In this document: one piece after another, positions 16,118-26,824 of the stretch | Numbering within the stretch: the first letter of the stretch is position 1 | Layout: each line of letters begins with the position of its first letter | Source of the DNA: Actinomycetota bacterium | GTDB lineage: Bacteria; Actinomycetota; Acidimicrobiia; Acidimicrobiales; JAJPHD01 | Direction of reading: 5' to 3' | Assembly: GCA_021325455.1 (NCBI GenBank) | Contig: JAJPHD010000017.1 | Location: 62,001-126,000, forward strand | Length of the DNA stretch: 64,000 nucleotides | The notes under the pieces: model-generated | The model's database searches: none | Told to the model about the DNA's origin: nothing | Seen by the model: the letters and a program-made list of their open reading frames with translations, nothing else | Program-made: the position numbers and the translations under genes

Positions 16118-16528
16118 GTGGACGCAGGGTACCCGCTGGTCGGTATGGGGGTAGTGAGGGTCATGCGCCGGACCCTGGTGAGCGCCGGGGTGCTGGCTGC
16201 GGCCTGCCTGGCCCTGGCCCTGGCCTTGGGCTACCCGGCTGTCGGCGCCGGGGCGGTGGTGGGCCTCTTCCTCGGGGCTGGCAACGCCTATGGCATGCGC
16301 CGCATGGTGGGGCGGGCAGCCGCCACCGGCGAGACCAGCAAGCGGGCCCTGGCCGGTGCCAGCATCAGCCGCCTGGGGGTGGTCACGGCGGGGGTGTTCA
16401 TCCTCTTCCTCATCGACCAGCACGCCGGCCTGGGCTCGCTGGTCGGCCTGGCGCTGTTCCAGATGTCCATCCTGGCCAACTCCTCCCGGGTCCTGCTCCG
16501 CCAGCTGAGGAGAGAGGCGGGCCTGTGA
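16118..16528 (+). CDS. atpI: ATP synthase subunit I-like membrane protein
   Basis: A 136-residue membrane protein with four hydrophobic segments (TLVSAGVLAAACLALALALG, AVGAGAVVGLFLGAGNAYG, ISRLGVVTAGVFILFLI, GLGSLVGLALFQMSILANS), standing first in the atp operon where AtpI normally lies. AtpI helps assemble the c-ring or supply Mg2+; it is poorly conserved, so the call rests mainly on position and topology. GTG at 16118 follows an AGGGAGAGAG site; an ATG at 16145 is an alternative. The TGA overlaps the atpB GTG. Confidence 0.7.
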   Translation: MDAGYPLVGMGVVRVMRRTLVSAGVLAAACLALALALGYPAVGAGAVVGLFLGAGNAYGMRRMVGRAAATGETSKRALAGASISRLGVVTAGVFILFLIDQHAGLGSLVGLALFQMSILANSSRVLLRQLRREAGL

Positions 16529-17328
16529 TCCACCACGGCGACCTGGTGCTGGCCGCCGCCCAGGCACCCCACCAACTGGTCCACGCTGGCATCCTGCGCC
16601 CCCCCTTCCCCAAGGCGGCCAACTGCGCCAACAACCACGTCTGCGTCACCGACGACGTGGCCATCAAGTTCTTCGGCCAGGAGCTGGACATCAACGACAT
16701 CTGGGCCACCTGCGTGGCGGCCCTCATCGTGGGCGGCCTGGGGATCTACACGGCCCGCAGGGCGACCAGCGGCGTCCCGGGCAAGCTCCAGCTGGCCTGG
16801 GAGGGCCTGATCGGCTGGATCACCGATCAGGTGGAGAGCCGGGTGGGCCCGGCAGGACGCCAGGTCGTGCCCCTGGCGGTGTGCATCTTCGCCTTCATCC
16901 TGATCGCCAACTGGTTCGAGATCTTCTGGCCCGCCGGCCACGCCCCCAACTACATGCCCACCCCCACCTCGAACGTCAACATCGACTACGCCATGGCCCT
17001 CACCGTGTTCGTCTACACGAACTGGGTGGCCATCAAGTCAGCCGGCCTGCGCAAGTACCTTCGCCACTACGCCAACCCCATCAAGGCGGTGGAGGAGCTG
17101 TCCAAGATCCTCTCGCTGTCGCTCCGACTCTTTGGCAACGTGTTCACGGGAGCCCTCATCCTGGCGCTCATCGCCGGCCTGTTCCCCCTGTTCATCATCC
17201 CCTTCGCCGACATTGTCTGGGTCCCCTTCGACCTGTTCATCTTCGCCATACAGGCCTTCATCTTCTCGTTGCTGACGATCATCTACTACACGGAGGCCGT
17301 CAACCTCGGCAAGGAGGGTGCCCACTAG
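16525..17328 (+). CDS. atpB: ATP synthase Fo subunit a
   Basis: A 267-residue membrane subunit that forms the proton half-channels against the c-ring. The essential Arg sits in ELSKILSLSLRLFGNVFTGALIL near residue 195, with the usual IFAIQAFIFSLLTIIYY as last helix. The N-terminal ~40 residues (with CANNHVCV) are outside the membrane and contain two Cys. GTG start overlaps the atpI stop (GTGA). Confidence 0.96.
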   Translation: MIHHGDLVLAAAQAPHQLVHAGILRPPFPKAANCANNHVCVTDDVAIKFFGQELDINDIWATCVAALIVGGLGIYTARRATSGVPGKLQLAWEGLIGWITDQVESRVGPAGRQVVPLAVCIFAFILIANWFEIFWPAGHAPNYMPTPTSNVNIDYAMALTVFVYTNWVAIKSAGLRKYLRHYANPIKAVEELSKILSLSLRLFGNVFTGALILALIAGLFPLFIIPFADIVWVPFDLFIFAIQAFIFSLLTIIYYTEAVNLGKEGAH

Positions 17329-17376: not shown

Positions 17377-17784
<408 letters not shown>

Positions 17785-17812: not shown

Positions 17813-18319
17813 ATGATCGCCACCACAAACAACTTCATCCTCCCCAACGCCACCTTCATCCCCGAGGCCATCACCTTCTTCATCCTCTTGTACCTGCTGG
17901 CCAAGTACGTCCTGCCGCCCATCAAGGCCCGCATGGACGAGCGCCAACAGCAGATCGCCCAGTCCCTCGAGGTCATCGAGCAGGCCAAGGCGGCCGAGGA
18001 GGAGACCAAGGCCAGGGTCGAGGCCATGCTGGAGGAGGCCCGCCGTCAGGCCCGGGCCCAGATCGACCAGGCCACCCGCCTGGGCGAGGAGATGAGGGAG
18101 GAGCTGCGCCGTCGGGGCCAGGAGGAGTACCAGCGGGCCCTGGCCAGAGCCCAGGTCGAGATCGAGAGGGCCACCCAACGCGCCAGTGACGAGCTGCGCA
18201 GGCACGTGGCCGAGCTGGTGGTGACGGCATCGGAGCAGGTCCTCGGCCGGGAGCTGGACATCGACCGGCATCGGGACCTCATCGACGCCGCCATCGGCGA
18301 GGTGGAGACGAGTGCGTGA
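17813..18319 (+). CDS. atpF: ATP synthase Fo subunit b
   Basis: A 168-residue peripheral-stalk subunit: one N-terminal membrane helix (EAITFFILLYLLAKYVLPPI), then a long, highly charged coiled-coil (ARMDERQQQIAQSLEVIEQAKAAEEETKARVEAMLEE ... in pieces) that reaches up to F1. It is a separate gene here, unlike the b-delta fusion of mycobacteria. A strong AGGAGAGGAG site precedes the ATG. It overlaps atpH by 8 bases. Confidence 0.95.
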   Translation: MIATTNNFILPNATFIPEAITFFILLYLLAKYVLPPIKARMDERQQQIAQSLEVIEQAKAAEEETKARVEAMLEEARRQARAQIDQATRLGEEMREELRRRGQEEYQRALARAQVEIERATQRASDELRRHVAELVVTASEQVLGRELDIDRHRDLIDAAIGEVETSA

Positions 18320-19241
18320 GCAGCTGCGGGGCTTTGCGGCCGCGGTGCTGGGGAGCGCCCGGGAGGCAGGCGACCTGGCCCGGGTGAGGGGGGAGCTCCG
18401 GGTCCTGGCCGAGGCTGTCTTCGGCAGCGAGCCCCTCTATGACACCCTCACGGACGGGGCCATCCCGGTGGCCACCCGGCGGGCAGTGGTGGAGGACCTC
18501 CTCTCCGGGGCCGCCCCGGCAACGGTCCAGCTGGCCGGTGAGGCCATAGCCAACGAGCGCTCCGGCGAGGTGCCGCCCACCCTGGAGTGGCTGGTCGAGC
18601 GGGCCGAGGCCGAGGAACGGGCGGCCGAGGCGGGCCAACCGGCCTTCAACGACCCGCCGGCGGGCCGCAGCGCCATCAAGGCCAGGCTGGACGGCTTCGC
18701 CACCGCCTTGTTCCAGTCCCTGGAGGACCGCTCGGAGGTCGACGAGGCGGAGGACGAGCTCTTCCGCTTCGCCCGCACCGTGGAGGGCTCGGCCCCCTTG
18801 CGGGGGGCGCTCACCAACCCTGACGTCCCGGTCGAGGTCCGCCAGGCCGTGGTGACGGACCTGGTGGGAGGCAAGGTCCGGCCGGCCACGGCCCGCCTGA
18901 TCGCCTACACAGTGGGCGCCGCCCGGGCTCGCGGCCTGGTCGACCTGCTCGACTGGCTGGTGGAGAGGGCTGCCGCCGAGCGGGGCCTGCGGGTGGCCGA
19001 CGTGAGAGCGGCGGTGGACCTGGACGAGGGCCAGCGCCAGCGCCTGGCCGCCGCTCTGTCCCGGATGACGGGCCGGCCCGTCGAGCTGCGGGTCAGCGTC
19101 GACCCCTCGTTGCTGGGCGGGCTCAGGGTCCTGGTGGGCGACACCGTCATAGACGGGACCATCAGGAGACGCCTGGAGCGCCTGAGGGTCGAGCTGGCCT
19201 CCGAGGATACACTCGCCCCTCCCTCCCAGGTGGAGGGCTAG
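18312..19241 (+). CDS. atpH: ATP synthase delta subunit with duplicated N-terminal domain
   Basis: A 309-residue protein, much longer than the usual ~180. Residues ~5-105 and ~118-220 are two copies of the delta/OSCP N-terminal helical domain. Shared positions include GFA-A near the start, EL--A--V-GS-PL---LT, PV--R-AVV-DL--G---PAT, and LEWLVERA versus LDWLVERA at the end. The second copy is followed by the normal C-terminal delta domain (GQRQRLAAALSRMTGRPVEL ... GLRVLVGDTVIDGTI). Delta joins the b stalk to the top of F1; the extra domain may make a longer or stiffer stator. GTG start at 18312. Confidence 0.93.
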   Translation: MREQLRGFAAAVLGSAREAGDLARVRGELRVLAEAVFGSEPLYDTLTDGAIPVATRRAVVEDLLSGAAPATVQLAGEAIANERSGEVPPTLEWLVERAEAEERAAEAGQPAFNDPPAGRSAIKARLDGFATALFQSLEDRSEVDEAEDELFRFARTVEGSAPLRGALTNPDVPVEVRQAVVTDLVGGKVRPATARLIAYTVGAARARGLVDLLDWLVERAAAERGLRVADVRAAVDLDEGQRQRLAAALSRMTGRPVELRVSVDPSLLGGLRVLVGDTVIDGTIRRRLERLRVELASEDTLAPPSQVEG

Positions 19242-19331: not shown

Positions 19332-21002
19332 ATGTCAGAGCTAACCATCAACGCAGACGAGATAGCAGCCGCCCTGCGCCGGCATCTCGAGTCCTACCGG
19401 GCCGGGGTCAGCACCGAGCAGGTGGGCCGGATCACCGAGATCGGGGACGGCATCGCCCGAGTCTCGGGCCTGCCCGGAGCAGCCGTGAACGAGCTGTTGG
19501 AGTTCGAGGGCGGGACCATGGGCCTGGCCCTCAACCTGGACGAGGACACCATCGGCGCCGTCATCCTGGGCGAGACCAGCCACCTGGAGGAGGGAGACCT
19601 AGTCAAGGCCACGGGGCGCATCCTCTCCGTGCCCGTGGGGGACGGGCTGCTGGGCCGGGTGGTCAACGCCATCGGCGAGCCGATAGACGGCAAGGGCCCC
19701 ATAGCCTCCGACGCCTCTCGCCGGCTCGAGGTCCAGGCTCCCGGCATCGTGGACCGCCAACCGGTATCCGAGCCCCTCCAGACCGGCATCAAGGCCATCG
19801 ACACCATGATCCCCATCGGACGGGGTCAGCGCGAGCTCATCATCGGCGACCGCAAGACCGGAAAGACCACGATCTGTGTCGACACCATCCTGAACCAGCG
19901 TGGCCAGGGCGTTAAGTGCATATACGTCGCCATAGGCCAGAAGGGCACGACGGTGGCTTCCACCGTCGATACCCTGGACCGTTACGGCGCTCTCGAGTAC
20001 ACGGTCGTGGTCTCCGCCCCGGCGTCCGACCCTGCCCCCTTCAAGTACCTGGCCCCCTACGCCGGCTGCGCCATGGGTCAGCACTGGCTCGACAACGGCG
20101 AGGCCGCCCTCATCGTCTACGACGACCTCTCCAAGCAGGCCGAGGCCTACCGCCAGCTCTCCCTGCTGCTGCGCCGGCCACCCGGGCGCGAGGCCTACCC
20201 GGGGGATGTCTTCTACCTGCACTCCCGGCTCCTCGAGCGGGCGGCCAAGCTCTCCGACGCCAAGGGGGGCGGATCCCTCACCGCCCTGCCGGTCATCGAG
20301 ACCAAGGCGGGGGACATCTCGGCCTACATCCCCACCAACGTCATCTCCATCACCGACGGCCAGATCTTCCTCGTGACGGACCTCTTCTACTCCGGCGTGC
20401 GGCCCGCCATCGACGTGGGCAACTCCGTGTCCCGGGTGGGTGGGGCGGCCCAGATCAAGGCCATGAAGTCGGTGGTGGGGACGCTCAAGCTGGAGCTGGC
20501 CCAGTTCCGGGAGCTGGAGGCCTTCGCCACGTTCGGGTCCGAGCTGGACAAGGTCTCCCAGGCCCAGCTGGACCGGGGTTACCGCCTAACCGAGCTCCTG
20601 AAGCAGCCCATCAACGCCCCCATGCCCGCCGAGGAGCAGGTCATGGTGGTGTATGCCGGCACCAACGGCTACGTGGACGACGTGGCGGTCGAGGAGGTGC
20701 GCCGCTACGAGAAGGAGATGCTGGACTACCTGCGGGCCCGCCACCAGGACCTGCTGGAGGAGATCCGCACCACCGGGAAGCTGCCCGACGACGAGAGCCG
20801 CATCAAGGAGGCCATGGAAGGCTTCAAGCGCACCTTCTCCCCGCAAGTGGCGGGAGGCGCGCCGGCGAGCGGTGACGGGAGCCGGGCCAGCGGGGACGCC
20901 AGCCGGGCGGCGGGGGAGGAGGAGGCGCCGGGGGACGGGGCCCCGGCGGGCTCGCCGCAGCCGGGCCAGCCCTCCTCCGCCTCCGGGGACCAGGAGGGCT
21001 GA
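19332..21002 (+). CDS. atpA: ATP synthase F1 subunit alpha
   Basis: A 556-residue nucleotide-binding, non-catalytic F1 subunit. P-loop GDRKTGKTT near residue 170, and the conserved [18 protein letters not shown] and [23 protein letters not shown]. After the usual end ([14 protein letters not shown]) there is an extra ~45-residue tail rich in Gly, Ala, Ser and Glu. Actinobacterial (mycobacterial) alpha subunits also carry a C-terminal extension, reported to restrain ATP hydrolysis; this tail looks unrelated in sequence. ATG 19332 chosen over a GTG at 19242 because of the AAGGAACCAGG site and the family N-terminus [11 protein letters not shown]. Confidence 0.97.
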
Positions 21003-21008
21003 GGTCCC

Positions 21009-23467
<2,459 letters not shown>

Positions 23468-23469
23468 CC

Positions 23470-23841
23470 GTGGCGACCTTCCCCTTCGAGCTGGTCACCC
23501 CCGAGCGCACCCTGCTCGAGGGCGAGGCCGAGATGGTCACCCTCCGCTCCGCCGAGGGAGACATCGCCTTCCTGGCCGGCCACGTGCCTTACATCGGTGC
23601 CGTGCAGACCTGCCTGGTGCGGGTCCATCGTGGTGGCGGGCAGGTGGACGCGGCGGCCGTGCACGGAGGATTCGTGGAGGTGGCTGACGGCCGGCTCACC
23701 CTGCTCGCCGGGGTGGCCGAGGTCGAGGGGGAGGTGGACGTGGAGCGGGCCCGGCGGGCGCTGTCCAACGCCGAGTCGTCGGGGGACGAGGCCGCCCGGC
23801 GGCGGGCGGAGGTGAGGCTGGAGCTGGCGGGGGCGTCCTGA
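23470..23841 (+). CDS. atpC: ATP synthase F1 subunit epsilon
   Basis: A 123-residue protein with the N-terminal beta-sandwich (FPFELVTPERTLLEGEAEMVTLRSAEGDIAFLAGHVPYIGA, in parts) and a C-terminal helical pair (DVERARRALSNAESSGDEAARRRAEVRLELA). It couples rotor and F1 and can inhibit hydrolysis through its C-terminal helices. Last gene of the atp operon; GTG start. Confidence 0.95.
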   Translation: MATFPFELVTPERTLLEGEAEMVTLRSAEGDIAFLAGHVPYIGAVQTCLVRVHRGGGQVDAAAVHGGFVEVADGRLTLLAGVAEVEGEVDVERARRALSNAESSGDEAARRRAEVRLELAGAS

Positions 23842-24125: not shown

Positions 24126-25202
24126 CTAGCGCTCCGGTACCAGGCCCACCTCCCGCAGCTTGGACATGCGATGGCTGGCGTCAATGCGCCGCACCGTGCC
24201 GGTCTTGGACCGCATGACCAGGGACTGGGTGAGGGCGCCGGCGCTGTGGAAGCGCACGCCTCGCAGCAACTCCCCGTCGGTTATGCCGGTGGCGGCGAAG
24301 AAGCAGTTGTCGCCGCGGACCAGGTCGTCGGTCGTGAGCACGGCCTCCAGGTCATAGCCCCGATCGATGGCCGCCTGACGCTCCGTCTCGTCCCGGGGCC
24401 ACAGACGGCCCTGGATCTCGCCGCCCATGCACTTGAGGGCGGCGGCGGCCAGCACTCCCTCGGGGGTCCCGCCCACGCCGAGCAGCAGGTCCACACCCGA
24501 CTCGGGCCAGGCCGTCGACATGGCACCGGCCACGTCCCCATGGTCGATGAGGCGGATGCGGGCGCCGGCCGCCCTGACCTGGGCGATGAGGTCGGCATGG
24601 CGGGGACGGTCCAGGATCACCACGGTCAGGTCTCCGACCTCGGAACCCTTGACCTTGGCCACCTCGGCCAGGTTCTCCTCCGGAGGGCGGGTGATGTCGA
24701 CATGGCCTGCCGCCTCGGGGCCCACCGCCAGCTTCTCCATGTAGACGCAAGGGCCAGGGTCGAACATCGTCCCCCGCTCGCTCACGGCTATGACTGACAG
24801 CGCCCCGCCCTGGCCGAGCGAGATCAGGGTGGTCCCCTCGATGGGGTCCACGGCGATGTCGGTGAGGGGCGGGTTCCCGTCCCCGATGCGCTCCCCGTTG
24901 TACAGCATGGGAGCCTCGTCCTTCTCACCCTCCCCTATGACCACGACCCCATCCATGGACACCGTGGCCAGGATCAGGCGCATGGCGTCCACGGCGGCCC
25001 CGTCGGCCGCCTCCTTGTCTCCCCGCCCCAGCCACCGGGAGGCGGCGAGGGCCCCGGCCTCGGTCACCCTCACCAGTTCCAGGGCCAGGTTCCGGTCCGG
25101 CGCGATGGGGTGGGTGGCAGCCCTTGCCGGCCGCCCGACGGGGCCCGCGGCACTGACTTGCCCGGTGTCCGGTAGCTGGCCGTGGTGCTGGAGGTCACTC
25201 AC
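24126..25202 (-). CDS. glpX: Class II fructose-1,6-bisphosphatase
   Basis: A 358-residue enzyme of gluconeogenesis, hydrolysing fructose 1,6-bisphosphate. GlpX signatures: [17 protein letters not shown] near 58, [18 protein letters not shown] near 85, the metal-site AVDPIEGTT near 115, and [24 protein letters not shown] near 240. The N-terminal ~30 residues are an extension with no family match, so a later start is possible. GTG at 25202 lies eight bases after TATCGT on the minus strand, suggesting leaderless expression. Divergent from murA. Confidence 0.95.
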
Positions 25203-25216: not shown

Positions 25217-25413
25217 GCCAATGCGGGCAAGGCTGGCAGGGGGCGGGCCCGAAGAGGGTGGTGCGGGGGCCGAGAGGTGGCGAGGGTCAAGGTGGCTCGA
25301 GCTGCAGCCAGGCGGTTCGGGACCTTGCGGAGCCGCAGGTCGGCGGCGGTGGGACCCCAGGGGGCCCGGGGGCCCCGGCGCCACCGATTCGCGGGCTGGG
25401 GGCTGCGGGCGGC

Positions 25414-25419
25414 AATACT
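25414..25419 (+). promoter_or_regulatory. -10 box for leaderless murA
   Basis: AATACT, seven bases before the ATG of murA; the flank GGCCGGC is the same as before prfA. Confidence 0.45.
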
Positions 25420-25426
25420 GGCCGGC

Positions 25427-26824
25427 ATGGATCAGATGGCGGGATCGGATCGCTTCCTCGTCCGGGCCGGCCGGCCCCTCTCGGGCACCGTACGGGTCCA
25501 GGGCGCCAAGAACTCGACGCTGAAGCTCATGGCGGCCTGCCTGCTCGCCCCGGGCCGCCACCGCCTCCACAACGTCCCTGACATCGTCGACGTCGACATA
25601 ATGTCCGAGCTCCTGCGGGCGCTGGGGGCCAGGGTGTGGCGGGCTCCGGCCCCAGGAGGCCCGGAGGGCAGGGCCGACGAGGGGGCGCCCCAGCGGCCCG
25701 GTCCTGGCTCCGGTGGGGGGTCCCGTGGCGTCGCCCGAGGCGCCGCGACCCCGCCTGCTTCCGGGAGAGGCCCGGCCGGGGGCCTGGTCATCGAGGTACC
25801 GGAGGATCTGGGCCACGAGACCCCCTACGAGCTGGTGGAGAGGATGCGGGCCTCCGTTGTGGTGCTGGGCCCGCTCCTCGCCCGCCAGGGTGCGGTGCGG
25901 CTGTCGATGCCCGGTGGTGACGACTTCGGTACCCGCCCCATCGACTACCACCTGCGGGGGCTTGAGGCCATGGGCGCCACCTTCGAGAGCTCCCATGGCT
26001 ACGTGGAGGGGCGATCCGGGCGGCTGGTTGGCAACCGGGTGGTGCTGGAGTACCCCAGCCACACCACTACGGACAATCTTGTGATGGCAGCCTCCCTGGC
26101 CAAGGGCCGGACCGTGATCGAGAATGCCGCCCGGGAGCCCGAGGTGGCGGACCTGGCAGCGTTCCTCAACCAGATGGGCGCCCAGATCGAGGGGGCGGGG
26201 ACCTCCCACATAGAGATCGAGGGCGCGGATCGCCTGGAACCGGCCGAGCACGGTGTCATCCCCGACCGGGTCGAGGCCGCCACCTATCTTGCCGCCGTCG
26301 GGATGGCGGGGGGCGAGATCGTGGTCGAAGGGGCCAGAGCCGAGCACATGGACATGCTGATCGCCAAGATGGGCGCGATGGGCCTACGGATCTCCCCCAT
26401 GTCCGGGGGCCTGTGGGCACAGGCCCCGGGACGCCTTCAAGCCACCGACGTCTCGACGCTGCCATACCCAGGAGTGGCCACGGACTATAAGCCCCTTCTC
26501 GTCACCCTGCTGTCCGTTGCGGAGGGAGCCAGCATCGTCACCGAGAACCTGTACACAGGGAGGTTCCGCTACGTCGACGAGCTCCGGCGCATGGGGGCGG
26601 ACCTCCGCACAGAGGGGCACCACGCCCTGATCCAGGGCGTTCCCCGCCTGTCGGGGGCCCAGGTGAAGGCCTGCGACATCAGGGCGGGGGCGGCCCTGGT
26701 ATTGGCGGGCCTGCGCGCCGAGGGGGAGACCGTTGTGACCCAGGCCCATCACGTGGACCGTGGCTACGAGGACCTGGCGGGCAAGCTGGCCGGCCTTGGT
26801 GCAGACGTCTCGCGCATCCCGTGA
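25427..26824 (+). CDS. murA: UDP-N-acetylglucosamine 1-carboxyvinyltransferase (Asp-type active site)
   Basis: A 465-residue enzyme transferring enolpyruvate from PEP to UDP-GlcNAc, first committed step of peptidoglycan synthesis. GAKNSTLKLMAA near 26 carries the active-site Lys-Asn. The catalytic loop reads MPGGDDFGTRPIDYH, so the residue matching E. coli Cys115 is Asp165; such enzymes are not inactivated by fosfomycin. A ~45-residue Gly/Pro/Ala-rich insert (about residues 72-118) interrupts the first domain just before VIEVPEDLGHE. Later motifs (NLVMAASLAKGRTVIENAAREPEV, RVEAATYLAA, TDYKPLLVTLLSVAEG) are normal. Its TGA overlaps the next GTG. Confidence 0.95.
   Translation: MDQMAGSDRFLVRAGRPLSGTVRVQGAKNSTLKLMAACLLAPGRHRLHNVPDIVDVDIMSELLRALGARVWRAPAPGGPEGRADEGAPQRPGPGSGGGSRGVARGAATPPASGRGPAGGLVIEVPEDLGHETPYELVERMRASVVVLGPLLARQGAVRLSMPGGDDFGTRPIDYHLRGLEAMGATFESSHGYVEGRSGRLVGNRVVLEYPSHTTTDNLVMAASLAKGRTVIENAAREPEVADLAAFLNQMGAQIEGAGTSHIEIEGADRLEPAEHGVIPDRVEAATYLAAVGMAGGEIVVEGARAEHMDMLIAKMGAMGLRISPMSGGLWAQAPGRLQATDVSTLPYPGVATDYKPLLVTLLSVAEGASIVTENLYTGRFRYVDELRRMGADLRTEGHHALIQGVPRLSGAQVKACDIRAGAALVLAGLRAEGETVVTQAHHVDRGYEDLAGKLAGLGADVSRIP

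Follow-up and report, generated by a model that had tools for sequence, protein, structure and literature searches.

The N-terminal domain of the delta subunit of F-type ATP synthases caps the F1 crown, and the C-terminal domain joins the b dimer. The canonical bacterial delta and mitochondrial OSCP (Pfam PF00213; structures 1abv, 6OQR and 6YY0) have one N-domain. In the mycobacterial b-delta protein (AtpFH; M. smegmatis structures 7NJK, 7JG5 and others), two tandem delta-like N-domains and one C-domain are fused behind a b domain. The available text of the 2021 structure paper by Montgomery and others (PMC8617483) reports that the linking domain of M. smegmatis b-delta (helices 4–8) fits onto the delta domain after a rotation of approximately 120 degrees, gives gene duplication as the origin of the two copies, which are about 20 % identical, and describes each copy as holding one alpha N-terminus in a similar manner. 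The same text terms b-delta unique to mycobacteria, presents the duplicated domain as previously unremarked, and calls the benefit of the matching attachment to two alphas unclear (PMC8617483). An unfused delta of 271 residues with an extra N-terminal domain is represented by the NCBIfam model NF009967 (PRK13430). The architecture itself is already known, both from the duplicated domain of b-delta (PMC8617483, available text) and from the unfused duplicated delta that is common in Actinomycetes (NF009967). A search of freely accessible literature found no paper on duplication in an unfused delta or in Acidimicrobiia.

The DNA analysed here, referred to as the window, is a 64,000 nucleotide stretch from a member of the Acidimicrobiales, and contains a complete atp operon with the gene order I-a-c-b-delta-alpha-gamma-beta-epsilon. 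The genes, all on the forward strand, are:

16118–16528, +, AtpI-like gene at the operon head (23.5 bits, slightly under the Pfam cut-off of 25.1)
16525–17328, +, atpB, subunit a (profile match; the real start may be farther downstream)
17428–17784, +, atpE, subunit c (profile match; the real start is probably farther downstream)
17813–18319, +, atpF, subunit b, 168 aa (PF00430; its own gene, in another frame than atpH)
18312–19241, +, atpH, F1 delta (OSCP), 309 aa (PF00213, 144.5 bits against a cut-off of 22.3; NF009967, 200.4 bits)
19332–21002, +, atpA, alpha (ATG probably at 19332; presumed to be the subunit that the delta N-domains bind)
21009–21938, +, atpG, gamma (profile match)
22007–23467, +, atpD, beta (profile match)
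23470–23841, +, atpC, epsilon (profile match)

The atpH frame runs from a GTG start to a TAG stop and sits between the b and alpha genes. It encodes the delta (OSCP) subunit of the F-type ATP synthase of this cell, and the operon around it is normal. The source genome (2.9 Mb, 96 % complete) contains a single gene of the OSCP family and a single b gene identified with confidence. The atpF and atpH genes overlap by 8 bases in different frames, with b ending within the first codons of delta, and b and delta are thus two polypeptides, not the single one that characterises mycobacterial b-delta. An earlier reading of this DNA from its letters, here the sequence-only reading, had also described delta as separate from b. 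By eye, the frame opposite the end of the operon (24126–25202, −, 358 aa) resembles a class II fructose-1,6-bisphosphatase (GlpX), and the frame after it (25277–26824, +) resembles MurA.

The 309-residue product contains two complete tandem N-domains followed by one normal C-domain. Its parts are:

18312–18629, +, first N-domain copy (N1), residues 1–106, six helices (self-alignment, delta profile, model)
18630–18665, +, linker between the copies, residues 107–118 (delta profile, model)
18666–18986, +, second, canonical N-domain copy (N2), residues 119–225, helix-2 motif EDELFRF-R kept
18987–19208, +, delta C-terminal domain, residues 226–299, containing the GG...GDTVIDGTI region

Local alignment of residues 1–112 with residues 113–225 gave a score of 160 with 39 of 101 positions identical (approximately 39 %) and one gap. 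None of 2000 shuffled pairs reached this score (mean 32.3, SD 6.1, maximum 64; z 20.9). The C-terminal part scored 35 and 38 against the two copies, which is the level of shuffled sequences, and no likeness to either was seen. The Pfam OSCP model matches two separate stretches of the protein, and a delta profile derived from 56 single-domain deltas has matches at residues 1–107 (59.0 bits) and at 124–296, over N2 and the C-domain (183.8 bits). The copies end in LEWLVERA (residues 91–98) and LDWLVERA (residues 213–220). The tandem N-terminal domain, the copies of about 100 residues sharing more than a dozen positions and the L-WLVERA that closes each of them had all been noted in the sequence-only reading, and are borne out here.

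An AlphaFold2 model of the full protein was made from 15 sequences, of which only four span the first copy, and has a mean pLDDT of 84, about 90 in N1. The relative placement of the domains is uncertain because the pTM is 0.59. In the model, N1 has helices at residues 2–18, 22–38, 40–47, 53–63, 69–81 and 87–106, which are matched by the six of N2 at 119–136, 140–159, 161–168, 174–185, 191–203 and 206–222. The usual strand-helix C-domain follows, and pLDDT falls below 50 only at linker residues 113–117. The best solved matches to the model in Foldseek were mycobacterial b-delta chains. Modelled N1 superposed on the N-domain of Escherichia coli delta (1abv) with Z 12.5 and 2.2 Å over 102 residues and on bovine OSCP with Z 12.9; helical bundles may reach comparable Z values by chance, and weight is placed on sequence and structure jointly. 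When N1 was modelled alone, from two sequences, the helix pattern was nearly unchanged and pLDDT was 54, so the high confidence for N1 in the full model may partly reflect its likeness to N2. Searching the solved structures with N1 by itself returned nothing significant, the best match being a chloroplast delta (E 0.77). Both copies are modelled as six-helix OSCP N-domains, and not as one such domain preceded by an unrelated helical extension, the outcome that had been named as fatal to the tandem reading.

Compared with the canonical delta, which has one N-domain and about 175–180 aa and is the form in most families of the window's order, the N2 and C-domain of the window protein are the same, and N1 has the N-domain fold. 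Two tandem delta-like N-domains and one C-domain are shared with mycobacterial b-delta; its extra delta-like domain had been named in the sequence-only reading, in agreement with the available text of PMC8617483. The window delta is unfused, and its copies are about 39 % identical compared with about 20 % in b-delta (PMC8617483, available text). The linker between the copies is shorter in b-delta, and profile comparison found no specific kinship between the b-delta N1 and that of the window. NF009967 resembles the window delta in being unfused with an extra N-terminal domain. However, the window protein is longer (309 aa, compared with 271 residues in the model), its copies are separated by about 12 linker residues, the first helix of its N2 is complete, and the protein barely passes the NF009967 cut-off of 200 bits. 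In the genome search, its N2-C stretch alone gave 164.5 bits, and the cut-off was passed by only one of the 198 genomes of the window's order and by 53 of 347 genomes of the phylum. What is new is the distribution of single and duplicated delta in the window's order and a probably independent origin; the architecture of b-delta occurs here without b fusion, in another class and with single-delta relatives alongside. Our explanation of it, to which we assign a probability of about 0.7, is a canonical delta (N2 and the C-domain) with an N1 that would have been born within Acidimicrobiia and would serve as a second alpha clamp.

A delta match was found in 195 of the 198 genomes of the order and, by hand count, about 56 of the 195 have at least two N-domain matches in one frame. 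The genome search and the fetched loci together give 18 duplicated family codes (f1, f9, f16, f21, f22, f23, f29, f32, f33, f34, f37, f40, f44, f46, f48, f50, f125 and f126). The other families of the order have one match each, except G550 (f41) with two separate delta places, and most families of the order have a single delta. Thirteen odd genomes were re-examined. A double delta is consistent with the frames of 311–366 aa in G039, G344, G355, G480, G504 and G527, six genomes of the duplicated families, and with that of 301 aa in G466, and the 197-aa frame in G460 (f46, L256) looks single in an otherwise duplicated family. One of the two places in G550 (L249 and L259) lies within a 288-aa frame, the delta of G513 is cut by contig ends, and the remaining three have no delta match. 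Other orders of the class have one match each in 13 genomes of the phylum sample, and all seven that were fetched are single.

For comparison of the domains, 110 loci picked to cover both delta forms were fetched. By length, the deltas form two groups, 56 singles (173–190 aa) and 54 doubles (at least 262 aa), the latter comprising 34 acidimicrobial loci, 19 Actinomycete loci (including the divergent L231) and L178. Three of the doubles are b-delta fusions. The acidimicrobial label rests on named sequence neighbours (L004 and L006) and kinship codes. Locus L011, from Balneolales, had a match extending into N1 and was considered as a double delta, but it encodes an ordinary 181-aa delta and was rejected. 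Two b-type genes (b and probably b') were counted, using one profile at E < 1e-5, in 10 of the 20 single-delta loci of the same order (L189–L208) versus two (L173 and L174) of the 34 duplicated loci (the window, L003, L149–L177 and L246–L248).

N1 is conserved across the families of the order. Among the 34 acidimicrobial copies, R56 (window numbering) is found in 100 %, L42 and L63 in 97 %, G7 in 94 % and D48 in 91 %. Helix 1 (GYA..V), the block L..ALTD..VP..R.AVL.DLL and, in helices 5 and 6, the ERA-E stretch are all retained in N1. The helix-2 motif EDELFRF, kept in N2, is lost in both the acidimicrobial and the Actinomycete N1 families, and N1 is therefore not doing everything that N2 does. 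There are 12 positions at which the N2 of both lineages have a common residue that neither N1 family shares. The alpha N-terminus (MxELTIxxxEI) is alike in single and double lineages in nine of the 10 rows printed; a change accompanying the duplication was not seen in these rows, with single-delta L195 slightly off. N2 and the C-domain would act as a canonical delta, N2 on the F1 crown and the C-domain on the b dimer. N1 would lie beside N2 on the crown, most likely clasping a further alpha by its N-terminal helix. A single delta chain would then grip two alphas, and N1 might in this way stiffen the stator. We infer the second grip because both domains of M. smegmatis b-delta hold an alpha N-terminus (PMC8617483, available text).

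N1 could instead act passively, as a spacer, or serve in assembly or regulation, for example by touching b or the beta subunits of the crown. The loss of the helix-2 motif would suit duties unlike those of N2, the linker between the copies is modelled with low confidence at residues 113–117, and single-delta families of the same order manage without N1, with two b-type genes in half of those fetched (10 of 20) compared with two of 34 duplicated loci. Nevertheless, we think such a role rather unlikely, as much of N1 helices 1, 4, 5 and 6 is conserved, as a binding groove would be. In N1, such a groove would run between helices 1 and 5. Moreover, the extra domain of the mycobacterial relatives with solved structures binds an alpha N-terminus (PMC8617483, available text), and a second grip on an alpha N-terminus remains the most likely role for N1 by this analogy.

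The acidimicrobial N1 resembles the N-domains of its own class. Its mean identity is 27.2 % to acidimicrobial N2, 26.6 % to singles of the same order and 27.1 % to singles of the same class, compared with 22.8 % to Actinomycete N1 and 21.7 % to Actinomycete N2; Actinomycete N1 and N2 share 22.5 %. In hhalign, it scored 145 with acidimicrobial N2, 133 with order singles, 124 with class singles and 114 with other singles, and 81 and 78 with Actinomycete N2 and N1, respectively. Actinomycete N1 scored 57–93 against every group. The junctions also differ, N2 starting at profile positions 1–7 in 33 of the 34 acidimicrobial proteins (at 22 in L169) and at positions 7–23, with little or no linker, in the Actinomycete ones. 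Residues specific to pairs of groups favour neither relationship, with two positions common to acidimicrobial N1 and N2 only and three to the two N1 families only. In a domain tree of 164 rows, acidimicrobial N1 forms one clade (support 99) with Actinomycete N1 placed elsewhere, and 33 of the 34 acidimicrobial N2 form another (support 100) that groups with Acidimicrobiia singles (support 98). With these separate clades, ongoing gene conversion between the copies was not seen. Acquisition of the duplicated delta from an Actinomycete, conceivable in that the architecture is common there, is contradicted by this placement of N2, by the grouping of the window alpha, beta and gamma with their own order (support 100) and by the lack of Actinomycete affinity in N1. 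The two placements led us to reject it as highly improbable.

Tree tests used 81 of the 164 domains and 105 columns, a short alignment in which the N1 branches are long. The free maximum-likelihood optimum has acidimicrobial N1 and N2 in a single clade (lnL −14006.26), compared with −14009.17 when each lineage has its own N1 and N2 clade and −14016.33 when all N1 are together. The AU test did not reject the own-lineage tree, nor the all-N1 tree (p 0.25–0.33), and the latter was the better tree in a quick treekit test (p 0.81). Tried on 132 branches of the best backbone, acidimicrobial N1 preferred the stem of acidimicrobial N2, the Actinomycete-N1 stem being 26 lnL worse (p 0.046; 0.018–0.021 in another run). 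When the backbone of the all-N1 tree was used instead, the best position was the Actinomycete-N1 stem, by 2.5 lnL over the acidimicrobial-N2 stem, and when all N1 were forced into one clade and tried on 102 branches, the acidimicrobial-N2 stem was again preferred. A single duplication before the split of the lineages, with N1 outside both N2 groups, was 28.8 lnL worse (AU p 0.002, LG+F+G4) or 26.8 lnL worse (p 0.005, C20); these tests were run on the best tree's own backbone and are thereby biased towards it. It was also rejected in a constrained search (−14048.39, 42.1 worse, p 0.029), where the own-lineage arrangement under a comparable species constraint was not (−14030.05, 23.8 worse, p 0.19).

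These results bear on whether one ancient duplication, in an ancestor of Acidimicrobiia and Actinomycetes, was followed by many losses of N1, which would make the mycobacterial linking domain orthologous to the N1 of the window, a history implied by the sequence-only reading. The AU and treekit results for the all-N1 tree are compatible with this history, as are the absence of EDELFRF from both N1 families and the four-group mean-identity sums, a rough measure that gives 51.3 for an N1/N2 split and 49.7 for a split by lineage. Losses are conceivable too, in that single and double states alternate, with four changes on the 95 rows of an alpha, beta and gamma tree (15 of the 110 loci, without separate full alpha and beta, were dropped). 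However, losses would be required in several single lineages between the duplicated groups, the pre-split duplication was rejected as described above, and profiles, junctions and the best trees all speak against orthology of the two N1 families. We regard a single ancient event as unlikely. The origin of the extra copy in Acidimicrobiia, separate from the Actinomycete and mycobacterial one, is supported but not proven; from the domain comparisons, we think it likely that N1 was copied from an acidimicrobial N-domain. The sequence-only reading had proposed that the window protein represents the state before b joined. As acidimicrobial N1 lies next to its own N2, is no nearer to Actinomycete N1 than to unrelated groups and has a different junction, the window is probably a parallel case and not a pre-fusion state. 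Acidimicrobial N1 and N2 both date back far enough to cover all 18 families. Single-delta families of the order appear nested among the duplicated ones in the alpha, beta and gamma tree, but a tree that holds the duplicated rows together was not rejected (AU p 0.144). The extra copy may thus have been gained on one stem, or earlier with one subsequent loss.

Duplication before fusion does hold among the Actinomycetes. There, 16 of the 19 fetched loci (among them L231 of a divergent family) have a duplicated, unfused delta and three are fused. The fused loci (L187, L234 and L235) form one clade within family f90, beside four unfused duplicated loci of that family, so the duplication predates the fusion there. 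Unfused duplication is not rare, and is the usual state in the sampled Actinomycete families. The order of events put forward in the sequence-only reading is thus retained for this group, but not with the window protein as the precursor; its reading of the sequence was right and its evolutionary story probably was not. On balance, we lean towards at least two independent duplications of the delta head in Actinomycetota, in Acidimicrobiales and in Actinomycetes before b fusion, and perhaps a third near f80 and f68, with the helix-2 motif then lost in each upstream copy. If the duplications were independent, Acidimicrobiales, together with their sister families that have one copy, would amount to a natural experiment on the benefit of a second clamp. 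The advantage of the second copy becomes testable via natural pairs with double and single delta and via removal of N1, and a mycobacterial feature that is a proposed drug target gains a wider setting.

The possible third case involves L178 (G113, f68) and L231 (G086, f80), with a double delta, and L240 (G065, f74), with a single one. Alpha, beta and gamma together are 73–79 % identical for the pairs L178–L231 and L231–L240, yet their delta differs. L231 N1 scores 132 with the single domain of L240, 118 with the N1 of L179 and 90 with its own N2. The delta of G113 is unlike that of other f68 members and misbinning is possible. A third duplication may lie behind the pattern, or else a recent loss.

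The mycobacterial gamma insertion is absent from the window gamma. The window alpha has a 49-residue C-terminal tail rich in Gly, Ala, Ser and Pro (20850–21002), and alpha tails range from 0 to 73 residues among the sampled loci; long tails on alpha are thus not peculiar to mycobacteria.
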